A DNA stretch of 64,000 bases from Marinobacter bryozoorum (GTDB lineage: Bacteria > Pseudomonadota > Gammaproteobacteria > Pseudomonadales > Oleiphilaceae): NCBI RefSeq assembly GCF_023156245.1, contig NZ_JAKZAH010000002.1, positions 172,563 to 236,562 on the forward strand, read 5' to 3'. Below the pieces are notes generated by a model, which did not search any database, was not told the DNA's origin, and saw only the letters and a program-made list of their open reading frames with translations. The translations under genes and the position numbers were made by a program. This document shows, piece after piece, positions 2,441 to 29,410 of the stretch; position 1 is the first letter of the stretch; each line of letters begins with the position of its first letter.

Positions 2441-2773
2441 ATGCTGCAGAAAACCACACCCATCCGTTCAAAGAAGATCCGTGAGGCAGCCCGTGGCCAG
2501 GCCTGCACCCTGCAGATTGTTGGCGCCTGCTGCGGTGACTGGTCGACCACGGTACTGGCTCACCTGCCGGACGAGAGCCATGGCATTGCCAGGAAGAGCG
2601 ACGACCTGAGCGCATGCTTTGCCTGTGACGCCTGCCATGCGGTGATCGACGGCCGGGCCAGGTGGCCAGCCATGGAGGCAGAACATAAGGACTGGTATCT
2701 GCGCCGGGCCCAGATGCGGACCTGGCGCGTTCTGGTGGATCTGGAAGTGGTGACGATCAAGGGGGCTGCGTGA
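2441..2773 (+). CDS. YbcO-like phage nuclease (DUF1364)
   Basis: A 110-residue protein of the lambdoid YbcO/DUF1364 family. Family signatures visible here are REAARGQACTLQIVGACC, TTVLAHL, and CFACDACHAVIDGR. The cysteines and the H-A-V-I-D segment correspond to the HNH-like metal site known in this family. It probably processes or resolves phage DNA during replication or recombination. Length is close to the usual 95-110 residues. Confidence 0.7.
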   Translation: MLQKTTPIRSKKIREAARGQACTLQIVGACCGDWSTTVLAHLPDESHGIARKSDDLSACFACDACHAVIDGRARWPAMEAEHKDWYLRRAQMRTWRVLVDLEVVTIKGAA

Positions 2774-2997
2774 TGCTGGATGACCTGGAAGCGGAAGTGC
2801 TCGAGTACCTGCATGGCATGGATGCACAGATGGTGAGCGAGGTCAGTCGTGCGCTGAAGGCCAAGCCGGCGAATGTCAGGCAGGCGCTGCACAACCTCGC
2901 TGCTACCGGTGACGTGGCCATGACCAAGACATCGGACGGGCTGGAGCTGTTCGAAGCGGCCCATGGGGGCTATTTGCCGAAAGGGTGGACGGCTTGA
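2773..2997 (+). CDS. Phage small winged-helix protein
   Basis: About 74 residues. The segment M-V-S-E-V-S-R-A-L-K-A-K-P-A-N-V-R-Q-A-L followed by a short wing is a compact winged-helix fold like FaeA or MarR fragments. I start it at ATG 2773, inside the preceding TGA (TGATG overlap); a GTG at 2770 in the same frame would add one residue. A role as a small regulator is plausible but not shown. Confidence 0.5.
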   Translation: MLDDLEAEVLEYLHGMDAQMVSEVSRALKAKPANVRQALHNLAATGDVAMTKTSDGLELFEAAHGGYLPKGWTA

Positions 2998-3015
2998 GGC
3001 AGCGAGGGCCCGCGG

Positions 3016-3240
3016 GTGAGGCGTGAACACATCGAGGCAAACAAGCTGCTGGATATTGCGGAAACCGGCAACCGGGGCGCCTACAGGGATGCGCTGAAGG
3101 AAATGGAGGGGAGGCTAAGGCCGGAGGTATCCCGGCAGGCCGCCCACCTGGCGAAGTGGCAACATCAAATGTATCAGCGGTACCACAGGCTGTTCGCTTG
3201 GCGAGCGGAGTGGAAAGCAGGCAGGAGGGTGCAGCAGTGA
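3016..3240 (+). CDS. Phage hypothetical protein, basic
   Basis: A 74-residue basic, helix-rich protein starting at GTG. I do not recognise it. It is kept because its frame is tightly packed between two likely genes and its stop overlaps the next start (GTGA at 3237-3240). Confidence 0.4.
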   Translation: MRREHIEANKLLDIAETGNRGAYRDALKEMEGRLRPEVSRQAAHLAKWQHQMYQRYHRLFAWRAEWKAGRRVQQ

Positions 3241-3461
3241 CAGACCCACACCCGGATCCGGAGCGCTACTGGAAGCACCGCCGGCGTCTGGCTTACACGG
3301 CCATGGCTGCCCTGCTGGTCACCCTGGCAGCCGCCCTATTCGCTCCCATCCGCGAGGCGGTTATCCCCCTGATCGAGGGGCTGGCCTGGGGCTTTGTCGT
3401 CATCGTCATCGGTTACTACGGCAACAATGCCATCGAGTCATTCACCAGGAGAAAGCCATGA
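3237..3461 (+). CDS. Holin-like small membrane protein
   Basis: A 74-residue protein with two predicted transmembrane helices (about 22-42, TAMAALLVTLAAALFAPI; and 48-65, EGLAWGFVVIVIGYYG) and a charged C-terminus (FTRRKP). The position immediately before an Rz/Rz1-type spanin pair is the usual place of a holin. I start it at GTG 3237, which overlaps the previous stop; a longer version of this frame has no support. A second small membrane protein at 17515 next to the lysozyme is an alternative holin. Confidence 0.55.
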   Translation: MTDPHPDPERYWKHRRRLAYTAMAALLVTLAAALFAPIREAVIPLIEGLAWGFVVIVIGYYGNNAIESFTRRKP

Positions 3462-3853
3462 TCGCCAAGCTGCTCACATCGAAAGCCTTACCCTGGGTGG
3501 CCGGCGCCGTCCTTGCCCTGGTTCTGGCCATGGCTGCCGCCCTGCTCTACCTGAACAGCCAGAACGACCGCCTGAGCGAGAAGGTGGGCAACCTCCAGCA
3601 ACAGAACGAACAGCTGACCGAGACGGCCCGCCGACTATCCGAGGACTACCAGGCCCTCCAGCTGGAAGTCGAGCGCCGGGACGAGCTGGTCACCCGCACC
3701 CTGCAAGAGAAACAGGCGATAGAGGGGAATGCCCGTGAAACCATCAATGAATTGCGCAGGGCGCTGGAAGGCGATACGTGTGCTATCCGCCCTCATCCTG
3801 GCGCCGTGGCTGACAGCCTGCGGCACAACGCCGGTGATCGAGTACAGGACTGA
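3458..3853 (+). CDS. i-spanin (Rz-like)
   Basis: A 131-residue inner-membrane spanin candidate. One N-terminal transmembrane helix (about residues 11-33, PWVAGAVLALVLAMAAALLY) is followed by a long coiled coil (35-105), the architecture of Rz proteins. It would join the o-spanin encoded inside its own 3' half to fuse inner and outer membranes at lysis. It overlaps the holin-like gene by four bases. Confidence 0.7.
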   Translation: MIAKLLTSKALPWVAGAVLALVLAMAAALLYLNSQNDRLSEKVGNLQQQNEQLTETARRLSEDYQALQLEVERRDELVTRTLQEKQAIEGNARETINELRRALEGDTCAIRPHPGAVADSLRHNAGDRVQD

Positions 3854-4037
3854 ATATGTCTACCCTCCCTCCCCCCTGCTCCAGCCCAGCCCGGTACCCG
3901 AGTACACAGGCCGAACCTGGGGCGACCTACCAGAGTACTGCGCCGTGCTTCAAAGCGAGCTGCGCCAGTGCGACGCCGACAAGCAGGCAGTCAGGGAGTG
4001 GGTCGACGGACATAGAACAAACAGCAACAAGCAGTAA
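3729..4037 (+). CDS. o-spanin (Rz1-like lipoprotein), nested in Rz
   Basis: A lipoprotein read in another frame, starting inside the i-spanin gene and running past its end. The signal peptide ends in a lipobox, APWLTAC-G (Cys31), followed by a Pro-rich segment (YPPSPLLQPSPVPEY), typical of Rz1. The ATG at 3729 has a GAGGGG just upstream; ATG 3747 and GTG 3780 are alternative starts and also keep a signal peptide. Nested Rz/Rz1 genes are a known phage lysis arrangement. Confidence 0.7.
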   Translation: MPVKPSMNCAGRWKAIRVLSALILAPWLTACGTTPVIEYRTEYVYPPSPLLQPSPVPEYTGRTWGDLPEYCAVLQSELRQCDADKQAVREWVDGHRTNSNKQ

Positions 4038-4049
4038 CGGAGGCAGGTC

Positions 4050-4433
4050 GTGACGCTGGTAGAAGAGATCGCGCAAGAGGCAGGACTCGAGGTGATGATG
4101 CTGGTATGCCAGATCTGGGGCGGCCAGACACTCTACATTCCCGACAACCCGAAACCCGATCACCCGATAGCCCAGGACATCGGTTATGAAAACCTGCTCC
4201 ACCTGGTTGCACTCTACGGCGGTCAGACAATCCACCCCCCCTCCCTTGAGCGACCCCACCTGGCTCAGAGAGCCAAGGCCCGGTTCCTCAAGCAGACAGG
4301 ATTGTCTGAGCGGCGCATCGCCTGGGTGCTTGGCGTCAGCGTGAATCGAATCAAGTACATGCTCAACGGGAACAAAGCCAACGCCCAGTGGCATGAGCGT
4401 CAGGAGATGGAGCGGGAACTGAGTAATGGGTAG
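4050..4433 (+). CDS. Mor/C-family transcription activator
   Basis: A 127-residue protein resembling the Mu Mor/C activators of middle and late phage promoters. The family pattern includes YGGQTIHPPS in the dimerisation part and a C-terminal helix-turn-helix (about 80-108, LKQTGLSERRIAWVLGVSVNRIKYML). It lies between the first lysis genes and the terminase, so it probably activates the head and tail genes downstream. The target promoter was not identified. Confidence 0.7.
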   Translation: MTLVEEIAQEAGLEVMMLVCQIWGGQTLYIPDNPKPDHPIAQDIGYENLLHLVALYGGQTIHPPSLERPHLAQRAKARFLKQTGLSERRIAWVLGVSVNRIKYMLNGNKANAQWHERQEMERELSNG

Positions 4434-4588
4434 GCCGGAAACAAAAAGTCCTTTCCATTCAGAGGCCTGGGGTCCCTGCGCGGCCGGGCGCCACACGGGG
4501 ACGCGGAACCGCGCTTTTCGGCAAATTTTCGGCTTCCCATGGCTCCACCACCGCGAGCCCTTGGGGCACATGGGCTGCGGCTTAGTGG
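4434..4588. other. Gap before terminase; no gene seen
   Basis: About 155 bp with no convincing coding frame and several short GC-rich inverted repeats. This place, upstream of the small terminase, is where a late promoter or a cos site often lies in lambda-like phages. I cannot point to a specific cos or promoter motif. Confidence 0.3.
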
Positions 4589-5104
4589 GTGGTGAAGGTG
4601 GCGGCTGAAATCAACAAGTTGGCGGATGCCTACAACTGGAACATCACCCGGATTGCGGATGCGTTCGGCATGGACCGGGGTACGGTTCGGGGGCGTCTGC
4701 GTGCTGCCGGTGTTGTGCCTGCGGGCCAGAAGAACGGCGTCAGCGTTTACGCCCTGAAGGATGTTGGCCCGGCCCTGTTTGGTGATGTTGTCACTGGCAC
4801 CGGGACTGACCCTGACGAGATGATGCCCAAGGATCGTAAGGACTGGTACCAGTCAGAGAACGAGCGAATCAAGCTGGAGAAAGAAATGCGGGCGCTTATC
4901 CCGATTGAGGAGGTACACCGAGAAATGAGCCAGCTTGCCAAGAGCATCGCCAGCTCACTGGACAGCCTGCCCGACTTGCTGGAACGGGATGCCGGCCTGC
5001 CGGGTGAGGCCATCGACCTGGTAGAGGGTGTGACCGACAACCTGCGTGAGCAGATGTACCGCGCCATTGTGGACGACGAAGAGGAGCTGGCGGTCAATGA
5101 GTAG
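4589..5104 (+). CDS. Terminase small subunit (Nu1/DUF1441-like)
   Basis: Probable DNA-recognition subunit of the packaging motor. Residues 8-40 (LADAYNWNITRIADAFGMDRGTVRGRLRAAG) form a winged helix-turn-helix like lambda Nu1. The middle part (KDWYQSENERIKLEKEMRALIPIEEV) is typical of DUF1441 proteins that bind the large subunit. The start is GTG. The 3' end overlaps the large subunit by 8 bp, a standard terminase arrangement. Confidence 0.8.
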   Translation: MVKVAAEINKLADAYNWNITRIADAFGMDRGTVRGRLRAAGVVPAGQKNGVSVYALKDVGPALFGDVVTGTGTDPDEMMPKDRKDWYQSENERIKLEKEMRALIPIEEVHREMSQLAKSIASSLDSLPDLLERDAGLPGEAIDLVEGVTDNLREQMYRAIVDDEEELAVNE

Positions 5105-7133
5105 CTACGGCAGTGCCCGCATGATTCGCATGGACGTGGCAGAGCTGATACGCCCGCCGCGCCGCATCAAGCCCAGTCAGGCGGCCGCCGAATTCATGAA
5201 AGTGGTTGGCGGTGACGGCACGGTCCGGGATTGGAGCCCGGACGCCACCCCTTATATGGTCGAGCCCCTTGATTGCATGGGTGGCCGAAAGTACGACGCC
5301 GTGATATTCGTCGCTCCAGCTCGCACGGGGAAGACTCAAGCGCTTGTCGACGGCTATATCGCCTACGAGGTCGAGTGCGACCCATCCGACGGACTCGTCA
5401 TCCAGATCAGCGAGGACAAAGCCCGGGAGTTCAGCAAGAAGCGGGTTGACCGGATGCTAACGCACTCCCCGGCCCTGGCAAAGCGACTCAGCCCAAGAGG
5501 TCACGACAACAACGTTCACGACAAGATTTTCCGTGCCGGCAATTACCTGGGCATCAAGTGGCCATCGAAGAACGTCATGGCCAGTTCCGACTTCAAGTTT
5601 GTGCTGATCACCGACTTTGACCGGCTGGCGGAGGATGTCGGTGGCGAGGGTGACCCGTTCACACTGGCCTCAAAGCGGACCCAGACGTTCGGATCAACTG
5701 GCATGACGCTGGCGGAGAGCTCACCCGGGCGGGAGATCACCGACCCCAACTGGCGCCAGCCGACAGACTGCCCACACATGGCCCCGCCCACCACCGGCAT
5801 CCTCGATCTGTATAACCGTGGCGACCGCCGCCGGTGGTACTGGCAGTGCCCGCAGGGCCAGTGCCGGGAGTGGTTCCAGCCGATCCAGCAGAACTTCAAC
5901 GTTGCCTCCCGGGCCGTGTTCTGCCCTCATTGCGGCTGCGAGGTCTCCCAGGCCGAAAAGAAGCGCCTGAACATGAACGGCCGCTGGGTGCCGGAGGGCT
6001 GCTCCCTCACGCCGGACGGCGAAATGCTTGGCACGCCGAAAGGCGGACGGATTGCCTCGTTCTGGATGGAGGGCCCCGCCGCCGGCTTTCAGACCTGGGC
6101 CAGCCTGGCCGAAAAGCTGGAAACCGCCACCGAAACCTACGAGGTCACCCGCAGCGAGAAGGCGCTGAAGACGGTCACCAATGTGGACTGGGGCTTGCCA
6201 TACCTGCCCCGGGCCATGCTGGAGGACGCGGCGCGTACCAACCCTGCCGACAATGCCGAGGACTTCGAGCGCTACATCGTCCCCGAGCAGGCCCGGTTCC
6301 TCACGGCCGCGGTGGACGTACAGGGCGGCCAGAATGCCCGGTTCGTTGTCCAGGTGCACGCCCATGGACCGGACCGCGAGGAGTGGTTGATTGACCGATA
6401 CGAGATCAAGGAAAGCCCCCGCGAGGGCCTCGACGGTGAGCCGGCCCCGCTTGATCCGGCCAGCTACCCGGAGGACTGGGACACCATCACGGATAAGGTT
6501 GTTAGCGCCACCTACCGCACCCACGAGGACGGCCAGGAATTGCGGGTGCGCATGACCATCGTGGATTCCGGCGGCGAAGATGGCGTCAGCGAAAACGCTT
6601 ACCGCTGGTATCTGAAATGCGCCCGCAACCGATTGGCGCACCGGGTCTGTCTGTACAAAGGCGCGTCCGCCCGGAATGCGCCGCAGATCAAGGAAAGCAA
6701 GGTGCCGTCTGCCGCCAAGGCCGAAGTTCCCCTGCTGATTTGTAATCCCAACCTGCTGAAGGACGCCGTTACCAACGCGGCCCGCCGTTCCGATGCCGGA
6801 ACGTCCCGCCTTCACTTCCCCCGATGGCTGGGTGCCTGGTTTTGGGATGAGTGGCAGGCAGAGATCCGGCAGACCGATGGCCGCTGGAAGAAAGTCCGCA
6901 AGCGCAACGAGGCCCTTGACCTGGCCTGCATGAACCGCGCTGCCTCCCTGAAGCTGGGCACAGCAAAAATCCGCTGGGACAAGCCGCCGGCCTGGGCCCG
7001 TCCAGTGCTGGAGAACAGCGAGCGCATCAGCCGCGAAGAGCGCCGGGAAATGCAATCCGAACAGAAACCCCGCAAGCGCGAGAAGTCCGGCTTCAAGAAG
7101 TCCGGCGGTTTCAAGAAAGCGGAGTTCGTGTAG
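5097..7133 (+). CDS. Terminase large subunit (lambda gpA family)
   Basis: 678 residues, close to lambda gpA (641). It powers packaging and cuts concatemers. A Walker A-like loop, APARTGKTQ, lies near residue 77 and a Walker B-like strand, VLITDFD, near residue 170. A Cys cluster (CPQGQCREW...CPHCGCE, about 250-285) is common in this family, as is the nuclease-side V-D-V-Q-G-G segment near 410. I chose ATG 5097, which overlaps the small subunit, instead of an upstream in-frame ATG at 5046. Confidence 0.9.
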   Translation: MSSYGSARMIRMDVAELIRPPRRIKPSQAAAEFMKVVGGDGTVRDWSPDATPYMVEPLDCMGGRKYDAVIFVAPARTGKTQALVDGYIAYEVECDPSDGLVIQISEDKAREFSKKRVDRMLTHSPALAKRLSPRGHDNNVHDKIFRAGNYLGIKWPSKNVMASSDFKFVLITDFDRLAEDVGGEGDPFTLASKRTQTFGSTGMTLAESSPGREITDPNWRQPTDCPHMAPPTTGILDLYNRGDRRRWYWQCPQGQCREWFQPIQQNFNVASRAVFCPHCGCEVSQAEKKRLNMNGRWVPEGCSLTPDGEMLGTPKGGRIASFWMEGPAAGFQTWASLAEKLETATETYEVTRSEKALKTVTNVDWGLPYLPRAMLEDAARTNPADNAEDFERYIVPEQARFLTAAVDVQGGQNARFVVQVHAHGPDREEWLIDRYEIKESPREGLDGEPAPLDPASYPEDWDTITDKVVSATYRTHEDGQELRVRMTIVDSGGEDGVSENAYRWYLKCARNRLAHRVCLYKGASARNAPQIKESKVPSAAKAEVPLLICNPNLLKDAVTNAARRSDAGTSRLHFPRWLGAWFWDEWQAEIRQTDGRWKKVRKRNEALDLACMNRAASLKLGTAKIRWDKPPAWARPVLENSERISREERREMQSEQKPRKREKSGFKKSGGFKKAEFV

Positions 7134-9871: not shown

Positions 9872-11721
9872 CCAATAAACATCCTCCCGTAATGGCCTTC
9901 TGGCAGGCGGGGAAGCCCGGGAACAAGGCGTTCCGTGATAAGGGCGACCCCGGCCCCAACATCGCCAACCTGGCAAACCTGCGCACGGCTCGCATGCGGG
10001 CGCGTGACGCTGTCCGAAACATCCCCCTGGCCAGTCGCGCCATAGACCTGGACGTCACCAACATCGTGGGCACGGGCATCGTGCCTCGCTTTGAAGAGCG
10101 GCCCCTGTCCGCCCTGTGGCGAGAGTTCGAGGACGAGTGCGACGCCTCCGGCATCTACGATATCTATGGCCTGCAGGAAGCCGCCGTCCGCGCATGGCGG
10201 GAGACGGGCGAGTGTTTTATCAGGCTGCGGCCACGCAGGGCCTCCGACGGACTGGCGGTTCCCATGCAGGTGGAGTTGCTGGAGGCCGATATGGTGCCCC
10301 TGCAGAACTTCCCGATCCTGAGCAACGGCAATCGCATTGTTCAGGGCGTGGAGTTCAACGGCATCGGCCAGCGCGTGGCCTATTGGGTCCACAAACAGCA
10401 CCCCGGTGATAACTACGGCCTGCAGGTCTCACAGGGTGAGCTGACCCGGGTTCCGGCAGATCGCATCATTCACATTTACGAGCCGCTGCGCCCAGGACAG
10501 GTTCGGGGCTTCCCGCCTCTGGCCACCGTGCTACAGCGGATGCAGCAGAAAAACGACTTTGACGAGGCAACGCTGGAGCGTCAGAAGCTTGCCAGCAGCC
10601 TGACCGCCGTGTTCACCCGCCCGGTGCCGGAGACTGAGGGCGTGGATCCGATCACCGGCGAATCCATCGATGGCCGGGAAATGGCGGAGATTGAACCAGG
10701 CAGCGCTTACACCCTGTACCCGGGTGAGGACGTCAAGTTCCCCAGTCTGCCTTCCTTGGGCGGTGAGTATGAGGCGTTCGCCCGGGTCAACGGCCGGGAC
10801 ATTGCCGCCGGTTTCGGGCTGCCCTACGAGTTGCTGACCGGCGACTTCCAGGGCATGTCAGACCGCACGGTCCGCGTCCTGATCAACGAATATCGACGCC
10901 GGGTAGAGCAGCACCAGTGGCACCGGGTTATCCGGCAGATGATGCGCCCTATCAAGGCGGCCTGGCTGACTGCGGCCAAGCTTTCTGGTGTGGCGCGAGA
11001 TTCGATTGATGACACCGTTCGTTGGGTTCCGCCGGCATGGCCCTACTTCCACCCGGTGCAGGACGTGCAAGCCCTCACCATGGAGGTCAAGGCCGGTCTG
11101 CGCTCGCAGTCTGACGTCATACACAGCCGGGGCAACGACCCCGACCAGGTGCGCCGTGAGCGTGCCGCTGAACAGGCAGATGACCAACGGGCTGGGGTTT
11201 ACTCCACCACCACGGTCTACGATCCGGAGATCGAGCGCAGCAGCGCCCGGGCCCGGTCTGACATGGTGGCCCAGGCTGAGGCGCAAAAGGCTCGCGGTGC
11301 AGCCATGGAGTCGGTGGCAGCCAGCACGGCCAACCAGGCCATCGCCGAGGCCAACAAAGCCAAGGCGAAGGCGCTGGAGGCAGAGGCTCGTGCCCACGAT
11401 GCCGAGGAGGCCATGAACCGGTCTGCGGACGAGCTCAACCGGCTGCAAGGCGAGATTGCCAAGGCCCGGGCAGAGTCTGAGGCGCTGGCGGCGGATGACG
11501 AGCGAAAAACCCGCATGGAGGCCCTGGTGCGTGAGATTGAGGCCCGGGAGCAGTCAACTCAGCGCGAAGCTGAACACCGACTGGAGCTGGCCCTGCATGC
11601 AGCCGAGGAAGCCCGGGAGGCCCGAGAGCACGCCCGCAAGCTGCAGAAAGAGGACTACCGCATCAAGCAACTGGAGCGCCAGGGTGCCGAGCAGGTCCTG
11701 GCCGACCTGAGCGATGAGTGA
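9868..11721 (+). CDS. Portal protein (lambda gpB family) with long C-terminal coiled coil
   Basis: 617 residues; lambda gpB has 533. The portal core covers about residues 20-430 (NIPLASRAIDLDVTNIVGTG, EAAVRAWRETGECFIRLR, YELLTGDFQGMSDRTVRVL). Residues about 455-605 are almost entirely Ala/Glu/Arg heptads, an extended coiled coil not seen in lambda. The start is TTG 9868, overlapping the gpW stop; ATG 9892 is a possible shorter start. The extension adjoins, by 8-bp overlap, a gene whose product also begins with a coiled coil, hinting that the two interact. Confidence 0.88.
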   Translation: MTNKHPPVMAFWQAGKPGNKAFRDKGDPGPNIANLANLRTARMRARDAVRNIPLASRAIDLDVTNIVGTGIVPRFEERPLSALWREFEDECDASGIYDIYGLQEAAVRAWRETGECFIRLRPRRASDGLAVPMQVELLEADMVPLQNFPILSNGNRIVQGVEFNGIGQRVAYWVHKQHPGDNYGLQVSQGELTRVPADRIIHIYEPLRPGQVRGFPPLATVLQRMQQKNDFDEATLERQKLASSLTAVFTRPVPETEGVDPITGESIDGREMAEIEPGSAYTLYPGEDVKFPSLPSLGGEYEAFARVNGRDIAAGFGLPYELLTGDFQGMSDRTVRVLINEYRRRVEQHQWHRVIRQMMRPIKAAWLTAAKLSGVARDSIDDTVRWVPPAWPYFHPVQDVQALTMEVKAGLRSQSDVIHSRGNDPDQVRRERAAEQADDQRAGVYSTTTVYDPEIERSSARARSDMVAQAEAQKARGAAMESVAASTANQAIAEANKAKAKALEAEARAHDAEEAMNRSADELNRLQGEIAKARAESEALAADDERKTRMEALVREIEAREQSTQREAEHRLELALHAAEEAREAREHARKLQKEDYRIKQLERQGAEQVLADLSDE

Positions 11722-12244
11722 TTACCTCAAGGCACTGAGGGAGCGCAAGCGCACCCTGAAAATTCAGCAGGAGCGGCACGACGCGCAGCTTGAAGCCCTG
11801 GAAGAGCGCGCCCGACAGATTGTCGAAGATGCCAAGGCGCAGGCGCAGGCGGAGCGTGACCAGATACTGGCCGATGCCAAGGGCGATCCCGGTGAGGATG
11901 GCGACGTCGGGCCCATGCCGAAACACCAGTGGAAAGGGACGCGCCTGCGCTTTGAGGATGGCGAGCGGGACCACTGGGGCAAGTGGGTAGACCTGAAAGG
12001 CCAGCCCGGGCCTCCGGGGCCACCGGGCCGCCCTGGTAGCGGAGCCAATCTTGCCTCCCTGCCCCTGCTGAACGCCCCACCGGAAGATGGCGACACGATG
12101 ATCGTGGAGCGCGAAGGCAAGCTTTACCGGGTAACGATCCAGAATCTGAAAGACACCTTCGGCGAGGCGATCCCCATCGATGCGATTTACGCCGGTGGCG
12201 ATCCGGTCATGGCCGATGATGAATACGTGAGGGCAACAGACTGA
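11714..12244 (+). CDS. Collagen-like phage structural protein
   Basis: 176 residues. An N-terminal coiled coil (1-55) is followed by a short Gly-X-Y run, a globular segment (KHQWKGTRLRFEDG...WGKWVDL) and a second Gly-X-Y run (GQPGPPGPPGRPGSG, about 96-110). The C-terminal domain ends at the start of the DGR target gene (ATG overlap at 12244). It is likely a trimeric fibre or connector between the portal/neck and the variable protein. Family membership is by composition; no enzymatic motif is seen. Confidence 0.7.
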   Translation: MSDYLKALRERKRTLKIQQERHDAQLEALEERARQIVEDAKAQAQAERDQILADAKGDPGEDGDVGPMPKHQWKGTRLRFEDGERDHWGKWVDLKGQPGPPGPPGRPGSGANLASLPLLNAPPEDGDTMIVEREGKLYRVTIQNLKDTFGEAIPIDAIYAGGDPVMADDEYVRATD

Positions 12245-14436
12245 TGGCCGTACAACATAAAGACATCCCCAGAGAACACATGCACGACCCTTATCGGTGG
12301 GTGGTGGCTGACGAGGCAGAGCGCCTTGCCATAGCCCCGCTGATCTCGGACGTCCTGAAATGGGCGCACCAGCTCAGCGATGACACGATCTGGGAGCTGA
12401 AAAACTTCGCCCCGATCACCTGGCGGCAGGTAAGCGCTGTCAGTTCCGTCCACGGCCGGACCGGCGCGGTAACGGCGCAGGCTGGCGACTATACGCCCGC
12501 TCAGGTGGGAGCAGACCCGGCAGGCGCAGCATCCAATGCCGTGACAAGTCACGAACAGGCAGCGGATCCGCACTCGCAGTATGCGCAGAAAGCCGACCTT
12601 GCCGCTGTTGCCAATTCTGGCGACTACAATGACCTGACCAACAAACCCGACCTGAGCGTTCTGGAAGAGGTCACTGTATACGCCGATCTGGCCTCGTTCC
12701 CGGCGTCCGGCGAAACCGACAAGGTCTACATCGCCCAGGATACCGGCTATATGTACCGCTGGAGTGGGTCAGGCTATGTGCAGCTCACGGACCAGACCGC
12801 CATCTGGGGGCAGATCAGCGGCAACCTGGCCAACCAGGCTGATCTGAGCAATGCGCTGGCGGCCAAGGTGGATAAGGTGGCCGGCAAGGGCCTGTCCACC
12901 AACGACTACACTGACGCAGAACAGTCCAAGCTCTCAGGTATTGAGCCCGGTGCCACGAAGAACGCGACCGATGCACAACTGCGCGACCGCTCAACGCACA
13001 CCGGGACTCAACCGGCCAGCACGATCAGCGATTTTAACTCGCAGGCCTCAGCGGCGGCACCAGTCCAGAGTGTTGACGGCCGGGCCGGCGCTGTGGACCT
13101 GTCCGGAAGCTACGAGGCCAAGCGCCAGAACAACTTGTCAGCCGCCACCGACCCCACGGCAGCCGACGACGCCAGCGCCGGGTACGAACCGATGTCCCGG
13201 TGGATCAACACCAGTACCGGTGAAATCTGGCTCTGCGTCGATGCGACCAACGGTGCGGCGAACTGGCAGAAAGCCTCTTTGACCCTGGATGAGCTTGGCA
13301 GTGCTGCTGTTGTCGACGTGGGCACCGGTCAGGCTCAAATACCATTGAATAGCGATCTGGGCTCTGCAGCCTACTCCGACGCAAGCGAGTTTGACGAGGC
13401 CGGCGCAGCCTCCTCCGCTGTTTCAAGCCACCAAAGCGCCAGCAACCCGCACCCTCAATACACAACCGATGCAGAGGTCAATGACCTGGCCCCCAAAGCC
13501 CCCGGCGTGCTCGACGGCCTGCGCCGCTCTGTAGAGTCTGCATCTGGTGGGCGCATGACCGTGTTTTATACGGCGCTTGGTCAGCCCTCGTATTTCGTTC
13601 GGCAACCCCAGTTTCTCTGCGAGGATATCGCGCCGGGTGGCGAGCTAGGGTCTGGCGTTCATGAGGCGTTCAGGTTCGGGGCCGAGACCGACGCCGAAAT
13701 ATGGGTCGGGGCGTATCCAGGCTCAGTGGTCAACGGAGAGGGCGTCAGTCAGCCCGGCGTGGAAACCGGTCGGTCTATCGATTTCGATCAAGCCCGCGCA
13801 GCCTGCCAGGCCTGCGGTTCGGGCTTTGACCTGATGACCACCTGGGACTGGTCAGCGGTTGCTCTATGGTGCATGGCGAACGGATTTGAGCCCCGAGGCA
13901 ACACCAACCATGGTCGACACCACGATAATCGCTGGGAGACAGGCACCCGGCAGGATGGCGATACCTACATCCCCGGCGACAACTCCGGCATCGGCAACAT
14001 ACTAACCGGATCAGGCCCGGTTCAGTGGCGTCACGACGGCACCATGAGCGGCATATCTGACCTGGTGGGCAACGTCTGGGAATGGTCTCTGGGATTCAAG
14101 ATGATCGATGGCCGCATCTTTTTGAGTCCAGATAATGATATCCCTGCCGAGTCCAGCTATACCGACACCGGCTGGGATATGCCCGGCAATCAGACATGGG
14201 CATCGATGACCGCAACTGGCGCCAGTGATGCGCTGAAGCGTGCGCTCATTGTGCCCAAAGGCGTGGACGACCCCACAGGCAACCTTTACACGAATCTGTC
14301 CGGGGAACGGCTCCCGCTCCGTGGCGGCCCGCGCAGCAATGGCGGCGCTGCCGGCCTTGGTGCGCTGTACCTCAGCAGCGTTCGCACGCATTCGTACACG
14401 AGCATCGGGTTTCGCCCCCGCTTTCGCAATCCGTAA
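12244..14436 (+). CDS. DGR target: fibre protein with variable C-type-lectin/FGE-like domain
   Basis: 730 residues. The N-terminal 60 residues probably attach it. Residues about 70-440 contain fibre-like modules with repeated D-P-H-S-Q-Y / N-P-H-P-Q-Y and D-Y-T motifs found in phage tail and head fibres. Residues about 440-730 form a formylglycine-enzyme-like C-type-lectin fold (DFDQARAACQACG, TTWDWSAVALWCMANG, DLVGNVWEW, GFRPRFR), the usual DGR display fold. The last codons, residues 689-726, are encoded by the variable repeat, where Asn codons of the template became Pro, Ser, Ala, Tyr or His. It likely binds host receptors. Its gene is in the head/neck module. Confidence 0.9.
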   Translation: MAVQHKDIPREHMHDPYRWVVADEAERLAIAPLISDVLKWAHQLSDDTIWELKNFAPITWRQVSAVSSVHGRTGAVTAQAGDYTPAQVGADPAGAASNAVTSHEQAADPHSQYAQKADLAAVANSGDYNDLTNKPDLSVLEEVTVYADLASFPASGETDKVYIAQDTGYMYRWSGSGYVQLTDQTAIWGQISGNLANQADLSNALAAKVDKVAGKGLSTNDYTDAEQSKLSGIEPGATKNATDAQLRDRSTHTGTQPASTISDFNSQASAAAPVQSVDGRAGAVDLSGSYEAKRQNNLSAATDPTAADDASAGYEPMSRWINTSTGEIWLCVDATNGAANWQKASLTLDELGSAAVVDVGTGQAQIPLNSDLGSAAYSDASEFDEAGAASSAVSSHQSASNPHPQYTTDAEVNDLAPKAPGVLDGLRRSVESASGGRMTVFYTALGQPSYFVRQPQFLCEDIAPGGELGSGVHEAFRFGAETDAEIWVGAYPGSVVNGEGVSQPGVETGRSIDFDQARAACQACGSGFDLMTTWDWSAVALWCMANGFEPRGNTNHGRHHDNRWETGTRQDGDTYIPGDNSGIGNILTGSGPVQWRHDGTMSGISDLVGNVWEWSLGFKMIDGRIFLSPDNDIPAESSYTDTGWDMPGNQTWASMTATGASDALKRALIVPKGVDDPTGNLYTNLSGERLPLRGGPRSNGGAAGLGALYLSSVRTHSYTSIGFRPRFRNP
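14309..14422 (+). repeat. DGR variable repeat (VR)
   Basis: 114 bp, aligned without gaps to the template at 14895-15008 (offset 586). Thirteen positions differ. Twelve correspond to template adenines (to C five times, G five times, T twice); the other is T to G at 14331. The last 20 bp (14403-14422) are identical in both copies and G+C rich near the end, as expected for the initiation-of-mutagenic-homology segment. Upstream of 14309 only a degenerate, codon-shifted resemblance remains. Confidence 0.95.
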
Positions 14437-14458
14437 TCTGTAACCCTGCAATCTGCTT

Positions 14459-14476
14459 GCCCTGCGGTAGCAGGGC
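14459..14476 (+). other. DGR target-recognition hairpin after VR
   Basis: A perfect 7-bp GC-rich stem (GCCCTGC/GCAGGGC) with a GGTA loop, 36 bp after the end of VR and 12 bp before the avd start. Bordetella-phage-type DGRs need a hairpin or cruciform with a GRNA tetraloop here for retrohoming; GGTA fits that pattern. It lacks a T tract, so a terminator is less likely. Confidence 0.8.
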
Positions 14477-14488
14477 GTAAGGAAATAA

Positions 14489-14872
14489 ATGAATCAGGAA
14501 GACTTGCAAATCAGGCTAAAGGTGGAGGAGATGATCTATTACGGATATGCCGCTTTGCGGCAGTTTCCAAAGTCGGAAAAGCATGTGCTGTCTGCAGAAA
14601 TCCGGCAGTGCATGTACCGCATTCTGCGCCTGGTCATTGTTTGCAACCGTCGCTACTTCAAAAAGACCACTATGCAGGACCTGGATAGTGAGCTGGATTT
14701 GCTGCGCTCACTCGTTCGGCTCGGCAAAGAGCTGGGCTTTCTGCCATTCAAGCAATATGAGGTCTGGTCCAGGCACAACGACGAGATTGGCAGATACCTC
14801 GGCAAATGGATGCAATGGATGAAGCAGGAAGCCTCCAGGAGGCAGTCTGCCTCAAAAGGGCAAGGACGATAA
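14489..14872 (+). CDS. avd: DGR accessory variability protein (Avd)
   Basis: A 127-residue helical protein with the features of Avd: a four-helix-bundle pattern and many basic residues (EIRQCMYRILRLVIVCNRRYFKKT, ELDLLRSLVRLGKELGFL). Avd pentamers bind the reverse transcriptase and the template RNA and are required for mutagenic cDNA synthesis. It lies between VR and TR, the classical order. Its stop is directly followed by an ATG (TAAATG) that opens into the template region. Confidence 0.88.
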   Translation: MNQEDLQIRLKVEEMIYYGYAALRQFPKSEKHVLSAEIRQCMYRILRLVIVCNRRYFKKTTMQDLDSELDLLRSLVRLGKELGFLPFKQYEVWSRHNDEIGRYLGKWMQWMKQEASRRQSASKGQGR

Positions 14873-14894
14873 ATGGAAGGCTCTGGCGTTAAGT

Positions 14895-15008
14895 GGCTCC
14901 CGATCCGTGGCGGCAATCGCAACAATGGCGGCAATGCCGGCCTTGGTGCGCTGAACCTCAACAACGTTCGCACGAATTCGAACACGAACATCGGGTTTCG
15001 CCCCCGCT
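14895..15008 (+). repeat. DGR template repeat (TR)
   Basis: 114 bp between avd and the reverse transcriptase. It holds 24 adenines; 20 belong to ten AAC/AAT codons when read in the VR frame, nine of which are altered in VR. AAY codons in the template are typical, since adenine mutagenesis then samples many residues but never stop codons. A 161-nt spacer separates TR from the reverse transcriptase start, long enough to form the structured RNA that primes and binds Avd-RT. The transcribed RNA boundaries cannot be set from sequence alone. Confidence 0.95.
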
Positions 15009-15169
15009 CTCAGATCTCGGACGGCCAGAAGTTGCCGGGCTACGGCCCGGCTCCCAGTGCCGATCTGAAAGGACGCCAGATCCACGGCAGGAGCCGAAAA
15101 ATACTCAGAGAGTTGCGCGTAGTATCCGGCAAGGAGAGGCCTGCAACTCTTGCCTTAACAGGAAATGTA

Positions 15170-16300
15170 ATGGCAAAAACCTACAACGGACTCTTCGAAG
15201 AAATTATCACCTTCGAATCTCTTTATGGAGCGTACCTCCGCGCCAGGAAGGGGAAGCGGAAAAGCTGGCCTTGCCGGCACTTTGAGCAGGATCTGGAGGG
15301 TAATCTGATCCAGCTCCAGAACGAGCTGATCTGGGGGAAGTATCAGACAGGGCCTTACCGTAGCTTCTATGTCACCGAGCCCAAGCGCCGAAAGATAACT
15401 GCCCTGAAGCTCTTTCGAGACCGGGTGGTCCAGCACGCCATCGTCGGCGCTATCGAGCCGATCTGGGAGCGCCGGTTTATTGGGCACAGCTATGCCTGCC
15501 GACCAGGGAAAGGCACGCACTGCGGCGCAGCGACAGCCCAAAGAATGCTGCAGCAGTGCCTTCGCAAGCATGGCAAGGTTTATGTTCTGAAAGCGGATAT
15601 CAGCAAGTATTTCGCCAGCATCGACCACGACATACTGCTAAGCCTGCTGCGAAAGCGCATTGCAGACGCTCGGCTAATGTCGGTCATTGAGGACATCATC
15701 CGCAGCTACAGCGAGCCGGAGAGCCCGGGCAAAGGCCTGCCGATTGGCAATCTGACCAGTCAGCTTTTCGCCAATCTTTATCTCGACGCCTTCGATGACT
15801 GGATTAAGTGCCGCCGACGCGAACGGTGGTACGTTCGCTACATGGATGACTGCATCGTTGTTCACCATGATAAGCGCCACCTGCAGGCGCTCAGGATAGA
15901 TTGCCAGAGATGGCTTTCCGATAACCTTGACCTGGCAACCAATCGCAAAACAGACGTATTCCCGGTCGCTCACCATGGAGGGCGCGGCCTGGACTTTCTC
16001 GGCTTCCACTTGTGGCCTGACGGCCGCCGCCTGAGAAAGGCCAGTCTGCGTCGATTCCGTCGACAAGTAAGGCAATGGCAATCGCTTTATGAGTCCGGGG
16101 ATATAGATCTTTCAGATATCCGCCTGGAGCTGCATAGCTGGGCGAATCATGCCAAACACGGTGACGCGCTGCCTGCGGTCGCCGCTATTCTCAACCAGTC
16201 GCCATTCAGGAGGCATCCGGATGACAGCCGAAGACCCAATGTACGAAGACGAAACAGTAGTCGAAACCCACGAAGAGTGGGCGCTGCGAAAGCAGCGTGA
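15170..16300 (+). CDS. DGR reverse transcriptase
   Basis: 376 residues. The catalytic motif YMDD is at 224-227, with the first catalytic Asp in KADISKYF (D143). Motif 4 reads IGNLTSQ (192-198), the [ILV]GxxxSQ form that separates DGR enzymes from QGxxxSP group II and retron enzymes. It copies the template RNA with adenine errors into cDNA that replaces VR. I start it at ATG 15170, preceded by AGGAA. The frame is open upstream through TR to ATG 14873, but that would translate the template. Its 3' end overlaps the next gene by 80 bp. Confidence 0.93.
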   Translation: MAKTYNGLFEEIITFESLYGAYLRARKGKRKSWPCRHFEQDLEGNLIQLQNELIWGKYQTGPYRSFYVTEPKRRKITALKLFRDRVVQHAIVGAIEPIWERRFIGHSYACRPGKGTHCGAATAQRMLQQCLRKHGKVYVLKADISKYFASIDHDILLSLLRKRIADARLMSVIEDIIRSYSEPESPGKGLPIGNLTSQLFANLYLDAFDDWIKCRRRERWYVRYMDDCIVVHHDKRHLQALRIDCQRWLSDNLDLATNRKTDVFPVAHHGGRGLDFLGFHLWPDGRRLRKASLRRFRRQVRQWQSLYESGDIDLSDIRLELHSWANHAKHGDALPAVAAILNQSPFRRHPDDSRRPNVRRRNSSRNPRRVGAAKAA

Positions 16301-16541
16301 GCGAATGGTGGTATCAATGCGACAGGCGCACGAAGCCTTGATCCGTAGTGGCCTGCATCAGACGGCGCTGGATACGATTGCCGCGATACAAGACCCGGTT
16401 GAACAACTACTGGCGGAAAACTACTTCCACAAAGCCAACGAGTTTGAGCGAGGTAACGCTTTGCTCGTCACTATGGCCGTTAACATGGGAATGACAGATG
16501 AAGATCTTGATGACCTGTTTCGTCTGGCAGCGACGCTATGA
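16221..16541 (+). CDS. Phage hypothetical protein after the DGR
   Basis: 106 residues, acidic N-terminus then helical. The ATG at 16221 follows AGGAGG, and the start lies inside the reverse transcriptase gene. I do not recognise the family. Its place between the DGR and a cell-wall hydrolase, and its size, would suit a small assembly chaperone, but nothing in the sequence proves this. Confidence 0.6.
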   Translation: MTAEDPMYEDETVVETHEEWALRKQRERMVVSMRQAHEALIRSGLHQTALDTIAAIQDPVEQLLAENYFHKANEFERGNALLVTMAVNMGMTDEDLDDLFRLAATL

Positions 16542-16981
16542 AAGTCCACTTTCGCCGATCGAATCTACCGGGTGCCCTGCTGGTGCAGGCGGCCCTGTTT
16601 AGCCGCTGGAGTCACGTGGCAATAGAGATCGGCGATACCGTGTACGACGCCACCATGAGTCGCGGCGTGCAGTCGTGGCCGGCTGCCGGTTACACGGACC
16701 GGTACAGCGAGACGGAGACGGTGGAGCTACCCGGTGACGAGACGGCGGCCCGTGACTTTCTCCGACGCCAACTGGGCAAAAAATACGACTGGATGGCCCT
16801 GGTTGCGCTGCCGTTTCGGACCACCTGGCAGAGTCCGCATCGGTGGTTTTGCTCGGAGCTGGTGGCCAAGGCCCTGAGTCACGCAGGGGTGTTATCTCTG
16901 CCCTATAAGGCGTGGCGGGTGACGCCGCGTGATTTGCACCTGGTTTTGCGATCCCTCTATCACCCCCGCACCACGACATAG
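16538..16981 (+). CDS. NlpC/P60-like (YiiX/YebB-type) peptidase or amidase
   Basis: 147 residues with the permuted papain-like pattern: His in W-S-H-V-A-I-E-I (about 25) and the nucleophile Cys in W-F-C-S-E-L-V (about 107). This class cleaves peptidoglycan peptides or lipid-linked amides. It overlaps the previous gene by four bases and precedes the lysozyme, so a role in lysis or in cell-wall passage during infection is likely. A true NlpC tail protein would normally be in the tail-tip module, which this is not. Confidence 0.65.
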   Translation: MKVHFRRSNLPGALLVQAALFSRWSHVAIEIGDTVYDATMSRGVQSWPAAGYTDRYSETETVELPGDETAARDFLRRQLGKKYDWMALVALPFRTTWQSPHRWFCSELVAKALSHAGVLSLPYKAWRVTPRDLHLVLRSLYHPRTTT

Positions 16982-16998
16982 CCACGGACGGCGCCCTC

Positions 16999-17016
16999 CC
17001 CACCCCAAGACAGGCG
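16999..17016 (+). repeat. 18-bp direct repeat, copy 2
   Basis: Identical to 7137-7154. It lies in the 117-bp gap between the NlpC-like gene and the lysozyme. No other copy was noticed. Confidence 0.6.
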
Positions 17017-17098
17017 AACAAAATCTGCCCCCTTGATAATGATCGGTAAATGTTAAGTGTCGCCCGTGCGGCGCGAATACACCGAGTCGAGAGGCACG

Positions 17099-17518
17099 AT
17101 GGACCGCGAACTGCTAATCAGCCAGCTAGAGCGCCACGAGGGGCTACGCCTGCACCCGTACCGGGACACGGTCGGCAAACTGACGATTGGATTCGGCCGC
17201 AACCTGGACGACGTGGGTATCAGTCGCAACGAGGCAGAGATCCTGCTCGGTAACGACATCGCAACAGTTGAGCGTCAACTGGAGTCGGTGGACGAATACC
17301 AGGCGCTGGACCCGGTGCGCCAGGCCGTGATCTGCAACATGGCGTTTAACCTTGGGTTCCGGGGGCTGATGGGATTCCGGCGCATGTGGGCCGCGATCAG
17401 CCGCCAGGACTGGCCGGAGGCCGCACTGGAGATGACGAAATCAAAATGGGCTCGCCAGGTGGGCGTGAGAGCCGTTGAGCTGTCGGAGATCATGCGGACT
17501 GGCGAGGTGCAGCGGTGA
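17099..17518 (+). CDS. Phage lysozyme (GH24 endolysin)
   Basis: 139 residues. The T4/P22-type catalytic triad is visible: Glu in R-H-E-G, Asp in P-Y-R-D-T, Thr in K-L-T-I-G-F-G. It hydrolyses the glycan strands of peptidoglycan at lysis. The ATG at 17099 follows GAGAGG; an in-frame upstream start at 17057 adds an unneeded basic stretch. No signal-anchor is present in the chosen form, so a holin would be needed for export. Confidence 0.88.
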   Translation: MDRELLISQLERHEGLRLHPYRDTVGKLTIGFGRNLDDVGISRNEAEILLGNDIATVERQLESVDEYQALDPVRQAVICNMAFNLGFRGLMGFRRMWAAISRQDWPEAALEMTKSKWARQVGVRAVELSEIMRTGEVQR

Positions 17519-17784
17519 CGGATGTGGCAGATCGCAGAGGCTGGCATCTGGATAAGGGCATCCCCATCGCGGTGATCATCACGATTATCGTGCTGACGGT
17601 GACCATATCCCGGGACCAGGCAAAGCAGGACGAGCGGATCGCTCTAACTGAAAGCGCGATTAACGTCCTCCAGCAGGGTCGCCTTCAAGACCAGGGTCGG
17701 GCCGAGAAGAAGTTCGACGAATTAAAAACCGACCTGCGCACGATTAACGCCAAGCTCGACCGGCTGATCGAGGGGCGCAACTGA
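17515..17784 (+). CDS. Small membrane protein beside lysozyme (holin/antiholin candidate)
   Basis: 89 residues. One transmembrane helix (about 17-33, PIAVIITIIVLTVTI) is followed by a coiled coil (about 42-87). It starts at GTG overlapping the lysozyme stop and abuts the next gene. It could be a pinholin, an antiholin or a second spanin-like protein; a holin-like gene also exists at 3237. Confidence 0.55.
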   Translation: MTDVADRRGWHLDKGIPIAVIITIIVLTVTISRDQAKQDERIALTESAINVLQQGRLQDQGRAEKKFDELKTDLRTINAKLDRLIEGRN

Positions 17785-18092
17785 TGGACCCGTTTGCTGA
17801 CATGGTTGCGCGTATGGACGCCACCCTGCAGGACAGGCTGGGCACTCACTGCCAGTACCAGGACAACCAGGGCGCCACGTTCGAGACCCGCGTGGTGATC
17901 AGCAGAAACGTGGAGGTCATGAGCGCCTACGACACGCAGATGCCGGCCCGGCGCAATCTGGCCAGCCTAATCAAGGCGGAGATCCCGAGTCCCAAGCGTG
18001 GCCACACGATCACGCTGGAGGGCGGAGACGTTTACGTGGTGGACCAGTTGGACACCGATGACGGACACATGATCAGGGTGTTGCTGCAATGA
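17784..18092 (+). CDS. Head-tail joining protein (FII-like)
   Basis: 102 residues, close to lambda gpFII (117). The beta-rich pattern with A-T-F-E-T-R-V-V-I-S-R and H-T-I-T-L-E-G-G-D-V-Y-V-V-D is that of the phage head-tail connector family. It is followed by Z- and U-like genes, in lambda order. Confidence 0.7.
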   Translation: MDPFADMVARMDATLQDRLGTHCQYQDNQGATFETRVVISRNVEVMSAYDTQMPARRNLASLIKAEIPSPKRGHTITLEGGDVYVVDQLDTDDGHMIRVLLQ

Positions 18093-29176: not shown

Positions 29177-29226
29177 CAGCACTCATAATGCTGGGGTCGG
29201 CGGTTCGACTCCGCCCCTTGCTACCA
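29177..29226 (+). pseudogene. 3' fragment of tRNA-Met, prophage attachment site
   Basis: The sequence contains a full anticodon arm (CAGCA-CTCATAA-TGCTG, anticodon CAT), variable loop, T arm (GGCGG-TTCGACT-CCGCC) and 3' acceptor strand CCTTGCT-A-CCA. Upstream there is no matching D arm or 5' acceptor strand (AGCAAGG expected), so this is not a working gene. A tRNA 3' half at the end of a prophage is the attR left by integration into the tRNA gene. The intact gene should lie at the other prophage end, outside the window. Confidence 0.8.
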
Positions 29227-29275
29227 GAATTTAAAAAGGGTCCTCGCGTAAGCGTGGGCCCTTTTTTAATTCTGG
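29224..29275. terminator. Long palindromic terminator after the tRNA fragment
   Basis: CCAGAATT, A-rich and GGG arms pair with CCC, TTTTTT, AATTCTGG arms around a GC loop. It ends in a T6 tract on the plus strand and, being symmetric, may work both ways. Confidence 0.7.
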
Positions 29276-29385: not shown

Positions 29386-29405
29386 ACTCCGCCCCTTGCT
29401 ACCAG
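29386..29405 (+). repeat. Second 20-bp copy of the tRNA-Met 3' end
   Basis: ACTCCGCCCCTTGCTACCAG is identical to 29208-29227, 178 bp upstream. It lacks the rest of the T arm. It may be an older attachment scar or the original chromosomal end. Confidence 0.65.
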
Positions 29406-29410
29406 TATTC

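Follow-up and report, generated by a model that had tools for sequence, protein, structure and literature searches.

The 64,000-nt stretch of Marinobacter bryozoorum DNA analysed here (contig NZ_JAKZAH010000002.1, positions 172,563 to 236,562; "the window") holds, at 12244-16300, what we consider with a probability of roughly 0.93 to be all sequence parts of a BPP-1-type diversity-generating retroelement (DGR) in a prophage. The predicted action of the element is to copy a template repeat (TR), with errors at adenines, into a variable repeat (VR) and so to rewrite the 3' end of a tail-fibre-like gene. DGRs are already a known kind of element, and the window adds a further member that is likely active; the locus appears to be a complete and intact DGR in a Marinobacter prophage. 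Its parts lie in the order target gene with VR, hairpin, avd, TR and reverse transcriptase (RT), with all frames open (Table 1). A first-pass annotation had named a target with a 3' VR, a hairpin, avd, a TR and an RT with YMDD and IGNLTSQ motifs, and had called the cassette intact and free of frameshifts; we located every one of these parts, and the target, avd and RT frames all proved open.

Table 1. Features of the retroelement and of the prophage ends, in window coordinates unless stated otherwise
Feature	Position	Strand	Evidence and remarks
Target gene, 730 aa	12244-14436	+	Open frame; N-terminal tail-related matches; variable domain at about residues 422-730
Variable C-type-lectin-fold domain of target, as modelled	13480-14433	+	AlphaFold2, Foldseek
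VR, recipient	14309-14425	+	117-nt repeat with TR; adenine-biased mismatches
VR 3' end, predicted initiation of mutagenic homing (IMH) region	14405-14430	+	Single copy in genome (whole-genome pattern search); IMH label after passages of PMC3240598 and PMC6328139
Target-site hairpin GCCCTGC-GGTA-GCAGGGC	14459-14476	+	DNA fold: 7-bp stem, 4-nt loop; 33 nt past VR end
avd (accessory variability determinant), 127 aa	14489-14872	+	Pfam, NCBIfam and PHROG matches
TR	14895-15011	+	117-nt repeat; adenine-biased mismatches against VR
Structured spacer RNA	15003-15107	+	Held-out covariance model; begins inside TR 3' end
Central covarying hairpin of spacer RNA	15034-15051	+	Alignment, covariation
GAAAGGA element with candidate priming adenines A15068/A15069	15067-15073	+	Both adenines in columns at least 90% conserved, 53 sequences; priming role putative
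DGR RT, 376 aa	15170-16300	+	IGNLTSQ, YMDD; frame open back to 14873 across TR
attR	29177-29227	+	51-nt repeat
attL, 51 nt at tRNA-Met 3' end	starts at contig 157311, about 15.25 kb left of window	+	Repeat search

The repeat pair and the retroelement proteins

The longest direct-repeat family within 11000-18000 is a pair of 117-nt copies (14309-14425 and 14895-15011) with 88% identity. They mismatch at 14 of 117 positions, and because 12 of these 14 sit on adenines of the downstream copy, which has 24 (hypergeometric P 2.6e-8), we assign that copy as the TR. The two mismatches off adenine are a T to G (TR 14917, VR 14331) and a C to T close to the 3' end (TR 15009). Read in the VR frame, the TR has adenine in 14 codons, 10 of them AAY, from which no stop codon can be reached and about 10^14.2 proteins are possible. 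Phage DGR hairpins are described, in passages of PMC3240598, as having GC-rich stems of 7-10 bp, GRNA loops and a distance of 4-34 bp; the hairpin past the VR fits this rule, since its GC-rich stem of 7 bp, its GRNA loop and its 33-nt distance all fall within it. A whole-genome search with the TR sequence (E up to 0.1) gave two matches, the TR and the VR, and the VR-type 3' end has one match in the genome with up to 3 mismatches allowed. Additional targets elsewhere in the genome were ruled out on these grounds.

The Avd protein matches Pfam bAvd (9.3e-30) and NCBIfam DivGenRetAVD (109 bits, cut-off 80), and the RT matches PHROG 1423 at 2.7e-147. All seven NCBIfam families listed for the RT (group II, retron, defence-associated RT (DRT) and AbiA) stayed under their cut-offs. 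Among solved structures, 8ub7 is the best match (E 7.6e-61); it is listed only as "Reverse transcriptase" and is presumably the BPP-1 DGR enzyme, and group II RTs follow from 4e-24 down. An SQ-ending [IVL]GxxxSQ motif is a mark of DGR RTs: the window RT has IGNLTSQ with YMDD, the SQ ending is also present in the DGR loci of the RT comparison, and the group II RTs (12/12) have QGGPLSP or QGGVISP with YADD. We built a quick tree of 63 rows. Besides the window RT it contained 40 of 69 non-redundant DGR RTs, 12 group II RTs, every one of which passes the cut-off of its family, and 10 retron-like RTs, of which 2 pass the cut-off; the program warned of long retron branches. Each of the three groups (DGR, group II, retron-like) formed one side of a branch (97, 96 and 100% in the Shimodaira-Hasegawa-like approximate likelihood-ratio test, SH-aLRT), and the window fell among the DGR rows. 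The profile search and the phylogeny that the first-pass annotation had proposed for the RT thus agree with its DGR assignment: PHROG 1423 is matched at the value above with the rival models below cut-off, and the enzyme groups with the 40 DGR RTs, apart from group II and retron-like enzymes. The RT proper likely starts at the ATG at 15170, after AGGAAATGTA. Elsewhere in the host genome, four more RT frames (contigs C24, C35, C53 and C79 of G000) match the group II model, three of them over the cut-off.

The target gene, whose 3' end holds the VR, encodes a protein with a predicted C-type-lectin-like fold. The target protein matches a PHROG minor tail protein family (3.6e-10, the N-terminal part being tail-related) and phrog_2889 (4.1e-104), with no Pfam match at 0.001. 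Over its C-terminal part it matches TaqVP (5vf4, E 1.4e-72), the variable protein of a Thermus DGR. An AlphaFold2 model of the variable domain from a 48-sequence alignment reached a mean predicted local distance difference test (pLDDT) score of 90.6, and Foldseek with this model placed TaqVP on top (E 6.1e-34, query-normalised TM-score (TMq) 0.87); lower ranks held Mtd variants and the Treponema (T. denticola) variable protein, beside PvdO and EgtB-type enzymes. By its fold and by analogy with BPP-1, the target is probably a binding protein, and in the model of a tail-fibre-like protein its variable surface would touch the host.

Variation among relatives

We examined 161 loci and found a TR/VR pair in 136, of which 114 were distinct. 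The order VR-avd-TR-RT is kept in 108 of the 114 distinct relatives, and a GC-rich hairpin with a 4-nt loop lies no more than 90 nt from the VR in 71, with a GRNA loop in 70 cases; the other 43 lack one by that rule. Summed over relatives, TR/VR differences number 1375 on TR adenines and 53 elsewhere, a ratio that is partly by construction, as the finder requires an adenine excess. An automatic TR/VR search passed over L003, L005 and L006 and broke up L004; inspection by eye shows several TR/VR differences off adenine in L003, a changed TR in L005 and 1-nt gaps in L004 and L006.

Four of the relatives, the sibling contigs L004-L007, are 95.6-99.96% alike in pieces longer than 2 kb and could be aligned across the cassette; L059 was left out because it differs before the VR. 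Variable columns are concentrated in the VR (27/114) and TR (17/114), with 10/384 in avd and 25/1455 in the target before the VR, and the RT (0/737), the gap between VR and avd (0/70) and the spacer (1/164) are near-constant. In the TR, 15 of the 17 variable columns are private to L005, and 14 of these 15 stand at adenines of the others; the TRs of L004 and L007 are identical, L006 differs from them at 2 substituted sites and L005 at 15, and the window copy is one sequence. The 1-nt gaps, one in the VR of L004 and two places in the TR that set L006 apart from the other three, would break the frame and may be assembly errors. All sibling data are assemblies, in which mixing of VR and TR reads is possible in single cases.

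At the protein level, we chose ten sibling targets, of 120 listed, as near-identical before the VR and compared them from the shared TKAPALLDGL, excluding P0040 (VR same as in P0038) and P0050 (ends in the TR flank). Variable columns made up 16/43 in the VR part versus 4/269 before it, and all ten positions with asparagine (AAY) in the TR vary, accounting for 10 of the 16. Target relatives with species names come from Marinobacter shengliensis and M. nauticus. VR change in sequenced relatives, which the first-pass annotation had made a point on which its reading depended, is therefore present both in L004-L007 and in the ten sibling targets. As judged from these sequences, kin of the window cassette very likely diversify in nature, and the sibling VR alleles form a natural test set. 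Two further observations concern the relatives: L019 (4352-7718) carries a second avd and RT in tandem after the first pair, and L017 and L018 hold an identical 5091-nt DGR stretch (100%) in metagenome-assembled genomes (MAGs) titled Natronospirillum and Marinobacter.

A conserved spacer RNA between TR and RT

From the TR 3' end onward, we aligned the spacers of 53 relatives picked from 85 non-redundant ones. The conserved parts start with GCCAGAAG, which is followed by a hairpin and then CCAGUGC; after these come an AAAGGA-type element and another hairpin. Of 115 loci, 39 have the exact GAAAGGA within 110 nt, and 70 have a CCAGAAG-type motif within 60 nt. Thirteen base pairs are formed in 90.7% of cells, compared with 66.2% in shuffled alignments and at most 52.2% in slid ones. 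In twelve of the 13 both partners change, and covariation scores 0.621, versus 0.195 (shuffled) and at most 0.176 (slid).

A covariance model was then built from 31 of the 53 sequences with the window's clade left out. In the 64-kb window it gives a single match at E up to 1, the spacer itself (73 bits, E 5.9e-19). Among 33 loci outside the model, some of them identical in sequence, 25 match at E <0.01 (18/18 in the near clade, 7/15 of the others). In a set of 100 loci, among them 29 of the 31 model sequences and 11 of the 33 loci just named, 76 match the model, as do 4 of 8 phage DGR regions at E 2.1e-11 or better. The 24 loci without a DGR gave no match at E up to 10, and neither did the archaeal ANMV-1 virus; Chromohalobacter YPCBV-1 gave chance-level pieces only and FP_Lagaffe reached E 0.041. 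The spacer matches no family in Rfam 15, and assignment to a known Rfam family was dropped for that reason. Among the literature matches listed, no paper described a conserved DGR spacer family, and we make no claim that it is unpublished.

In BPP-1, according to PMC12875486, the spacer is a folded RNA that recruits both RT and Avd, and cDNA synthesis is primed from an adenine inside it. The window's spacer RNA would act likewise as recruiter of RT and Avd and as primer, with A15068 and A15069 as candidate priming adenines; this role is carried over by analogy, because the spacer model misses the BPP-1 spacer. We take the BPP-1 priming adenine to be spacer base 56 and give this no weight as evidence. 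The analysis names candidate adenines that can be mapped by sequencing, and the model offers a nucleotide-level handle for finding DGRs that needs neither VR nor RT.

Proposed mechanism and alternative readings

Taken together, we propose that an RNA would be transcribed from avd through the TR into the spacer, which would fold into the conserved structure and likely recruit RT and Avd. Synthesis of cDNA would likely be primed by a conserved spacer adenine, with the two named above as candidates, and run back into the 3' end of the TR, and the RT would misincorporate opposite TR adenines. The cDNA would then take the place of the VR, with the hairpin at 14459-14476 and the 3' end of the VR as guides, and the TR would remain as the store. 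Rewriting the VR in this way would likely let the phage try new hosts. Transcription, priming, retrohoming and receptor binding by the window copy are steps that we infer. The first-pass reading of a DGR in a prophage is borne out by the adenine bias, the protein families, the RT tree and the repeats at the prophage ends.

Several results weigh against this reading. The T to G mismatch in the repeat interior lies off adenine, the TR of the sibling L005 is itself altered, and the VR of the window phage is known from one sequence only. The BPP-1 spacer gives no match to the held-out model at E up to 10, and the window spacer folded alone is unexceptional (z -1.49). Promoter-like sites within 11500-17000 numbered 0 where shuffled sequences gave 2.0 on average; promoters and terminators within the cassette were accordingly dropped, being absent or under the shuffled mean.

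The alternative that survives best is that the DGR is now silent or dead and that the VR is a relic of past events, which we regard as unlikely. In its favour, the spacer RNA or target domain occurs in just 2 of 124 same-genus genomes, the other of which (G319) has one repeat and no avd, and one difference inside the VR is not at an adenine. The frames, motifs, hairpin and spacer RNA are nevertheless intact, and the VR differs across sibling populations. The suggestion of the first-pass annotation that the phage may still diversify its binding protein holds insofar as nothing is broken and relatives vary in their VR; present activity is something that we infer for the window's own copy.

That 14873-16300 encodes a true fused protein, with the TR translated as RT N-terminus, is very improbable. 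L003 and L017/L018 have a homologous open frame over the full length, and L006 has one from inside the TR onward; PHROG 1423 spans the frame, and the ATG at 14873 stands directly behind the avd stop. Yet among 40 distinct loci the TR runs open and in phase into the RT in 5, namely the window, L003, L010, L017 and L026, by an automatic choice of frame that looks wrong for rows such as L004, L006, L019, L021, L025, L038, L039 and L044. The two halves lie in different frames in L004, L005 and L007, an AGGA is found 6 nt upstream of the ATG at 15170, and the TR would stay open anyway, having to code like the VR. We therefore rejected the fusion as the normal state, as relatives do not keep the frame. 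A retron, DRT or group II intron RT next to an unrelated repeat is refuted as far as the sequence goes, for although the RT matches group II, retron and DRT models, all NCBIfam matches are under cut-off, the enzyme sits in the DGR clade at 97%, and avd, TR and VR adjoin it.

Possible template changes

Searches of the same-genus genomes, at E up to 0.001 with strict filters for the spacer RNA and at E up to 1e-30 for the target domain, gave matches in two, the window's and G319. In G319, a single contig of 4.4 Mb, the target, one repeat, the spacer and the RT form a single frame of 878 codons (L200:8497-11133, equal to G319:C1:1868496-1871132), which has PHROG matches to a tail-fibre start, the variable-domain family and RT. 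By eye, the 5' part of the repeat is an altered VR-like sequence and its 3' part is nearly the TR of L006; the repeat occurs once in the genome. No Avd was found genome-wide in G319, and the same family search did find Avd in G000 and G052. A crossover between VR and TR explains the fusion, and the resulting form is most likely a dead end because avd is gone. One such crossover would yield a fusion of this type in the window as well, since the frame of its TR continues, without a stop, into the RT. Another sequence with a comparable junction is P0050, a target of the L004-L007 type that ends in the TR 3' flank instead of the VR 3' flank; the residues at the start of its VR are similar to the altered TR of L005. 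Its reading as an assembly error is weakened, since a one-contig genome, that of G319, has such a junction. The altered TR of L005 (5020-5132) reflects either a real template change or mixing of VR and TR reads, and its altered 24-nt stretch is in no other viral contig.

A different arrangement is seen in L035 (DXHV01000083.1, a MAG titled Candidatus Desulfovibrio intestinipullorum), where seven tandem TR-spacer units in steps of about 303 nt lie between avd and RT (2523-6053). The last unit alone pairs with a VR in the locus, and the genome-wide spacer search listed 3 of the 7 units. For positions that are the same in the first and the last unit, the fraction at which the five middle units differ is 0.52 for TR adenines (17 positions) and 0.18 for other TR bases (72); in the spacer, the values are 0.20 for adenines (31) and 0.16 for other bases (94). 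Compared with the last unit alone the contrast is weaker, at 0.19-0.76 for TR adenines versus 0.18-0.32 for other bases and, in the spacer, 0.38-0.50 versus 0.29-0.36. The first unit shows no adenine excess in the TR against the last, and overall non-adenine differences outnumber adenine ones. DGRs with several TRs are already reported in PMC6642488, and several templates as such are therefore not new; a tandem TR-spacer array was found neither by keyword in PMC8144416 nor among the literature matches listed. We suggest, tentatively and against the odds, that templates in this DGR family may not be fixed: a TR may be overwritten by adenine-mutated copies (L005, L035) or merged with the VR (G319), all launched by the conserved spacer RNA. 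G319 and L035 point to two routes by which template and target can merge or multiply.

Prophage setting

The placement of the element in a prophage, also part of the first-pass annotation, is confirmed by attachment-site (att) repeats together with integrase, repressor and virion genes. A 51-nt repeat, identical to a tRNA-Met 3' end, flanks a 44.4-kb element (window -15251 and 29177). Genes for an integrase, a CI-like repressor, terminase, tape-measure protein, neck, protease, capsid E, a lambda-type portal and lysozyme lie between the repeats; 20 prophage proteins, a subset, were scanned, and 3 of 10 in one PHROG scan had no match. Past attR, at 29386-29410, there is a 25-nt partial second copy of the att end, a possible scar from another integration.

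Comparison with known systems

A close parallel in layout is the DGR of Bordetella phage BPP-1 (mtd, avd, TR, brt), which shares with the window the annotated order of parts, an Avd, a GRNA-loop hairpin past the VR and a tail target, and whose RT is 39.9% identical over 75% of the query; its att site as annotated is also at a tRNA 3' end. Phage and host are different, the window target resembles TaqVP by sequence and Mtd by fold only, and the BPP-1 spacer is missed by the model that finds the window's. The prophage DGR of Thermus aquaticus is close in its target domain, as the TaqVP matches given above (E 1.4e-72, TMq 0.87) show, and has the order target, avd, TR and rt according to passages of PMC6328139; unlike TaqVP, the window protein has about 400 extra N-terminal residues with tail-related matches. 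The DGR regions of Vibrio VHML, Pseudoalteromonas ACA1 and Aeromonas phiARM81mr belong to different phages, and VHML has no annotated avd in the stretch, but their RTs are 44-45% identical over 68-90% of the query, the target is annotated ahead of the RT, and the spacer RNA scores 67-86 bits. The annotated RT genes of ACA1 and phiARM81mr (L192, L194) begin right after avd, well upstream of the RT match, and PHROG 1423 counts the TR stretch as the N-terminus of the RT. Close relatives are the metagenome and MAG contigs L003, L017/L018 and L004-L007: although their target matches are confined to the later part and their VR alleles are different, they carry the same cassette, with RTs 76-80% (best piece) and avd 83-93% identical to those of the window.

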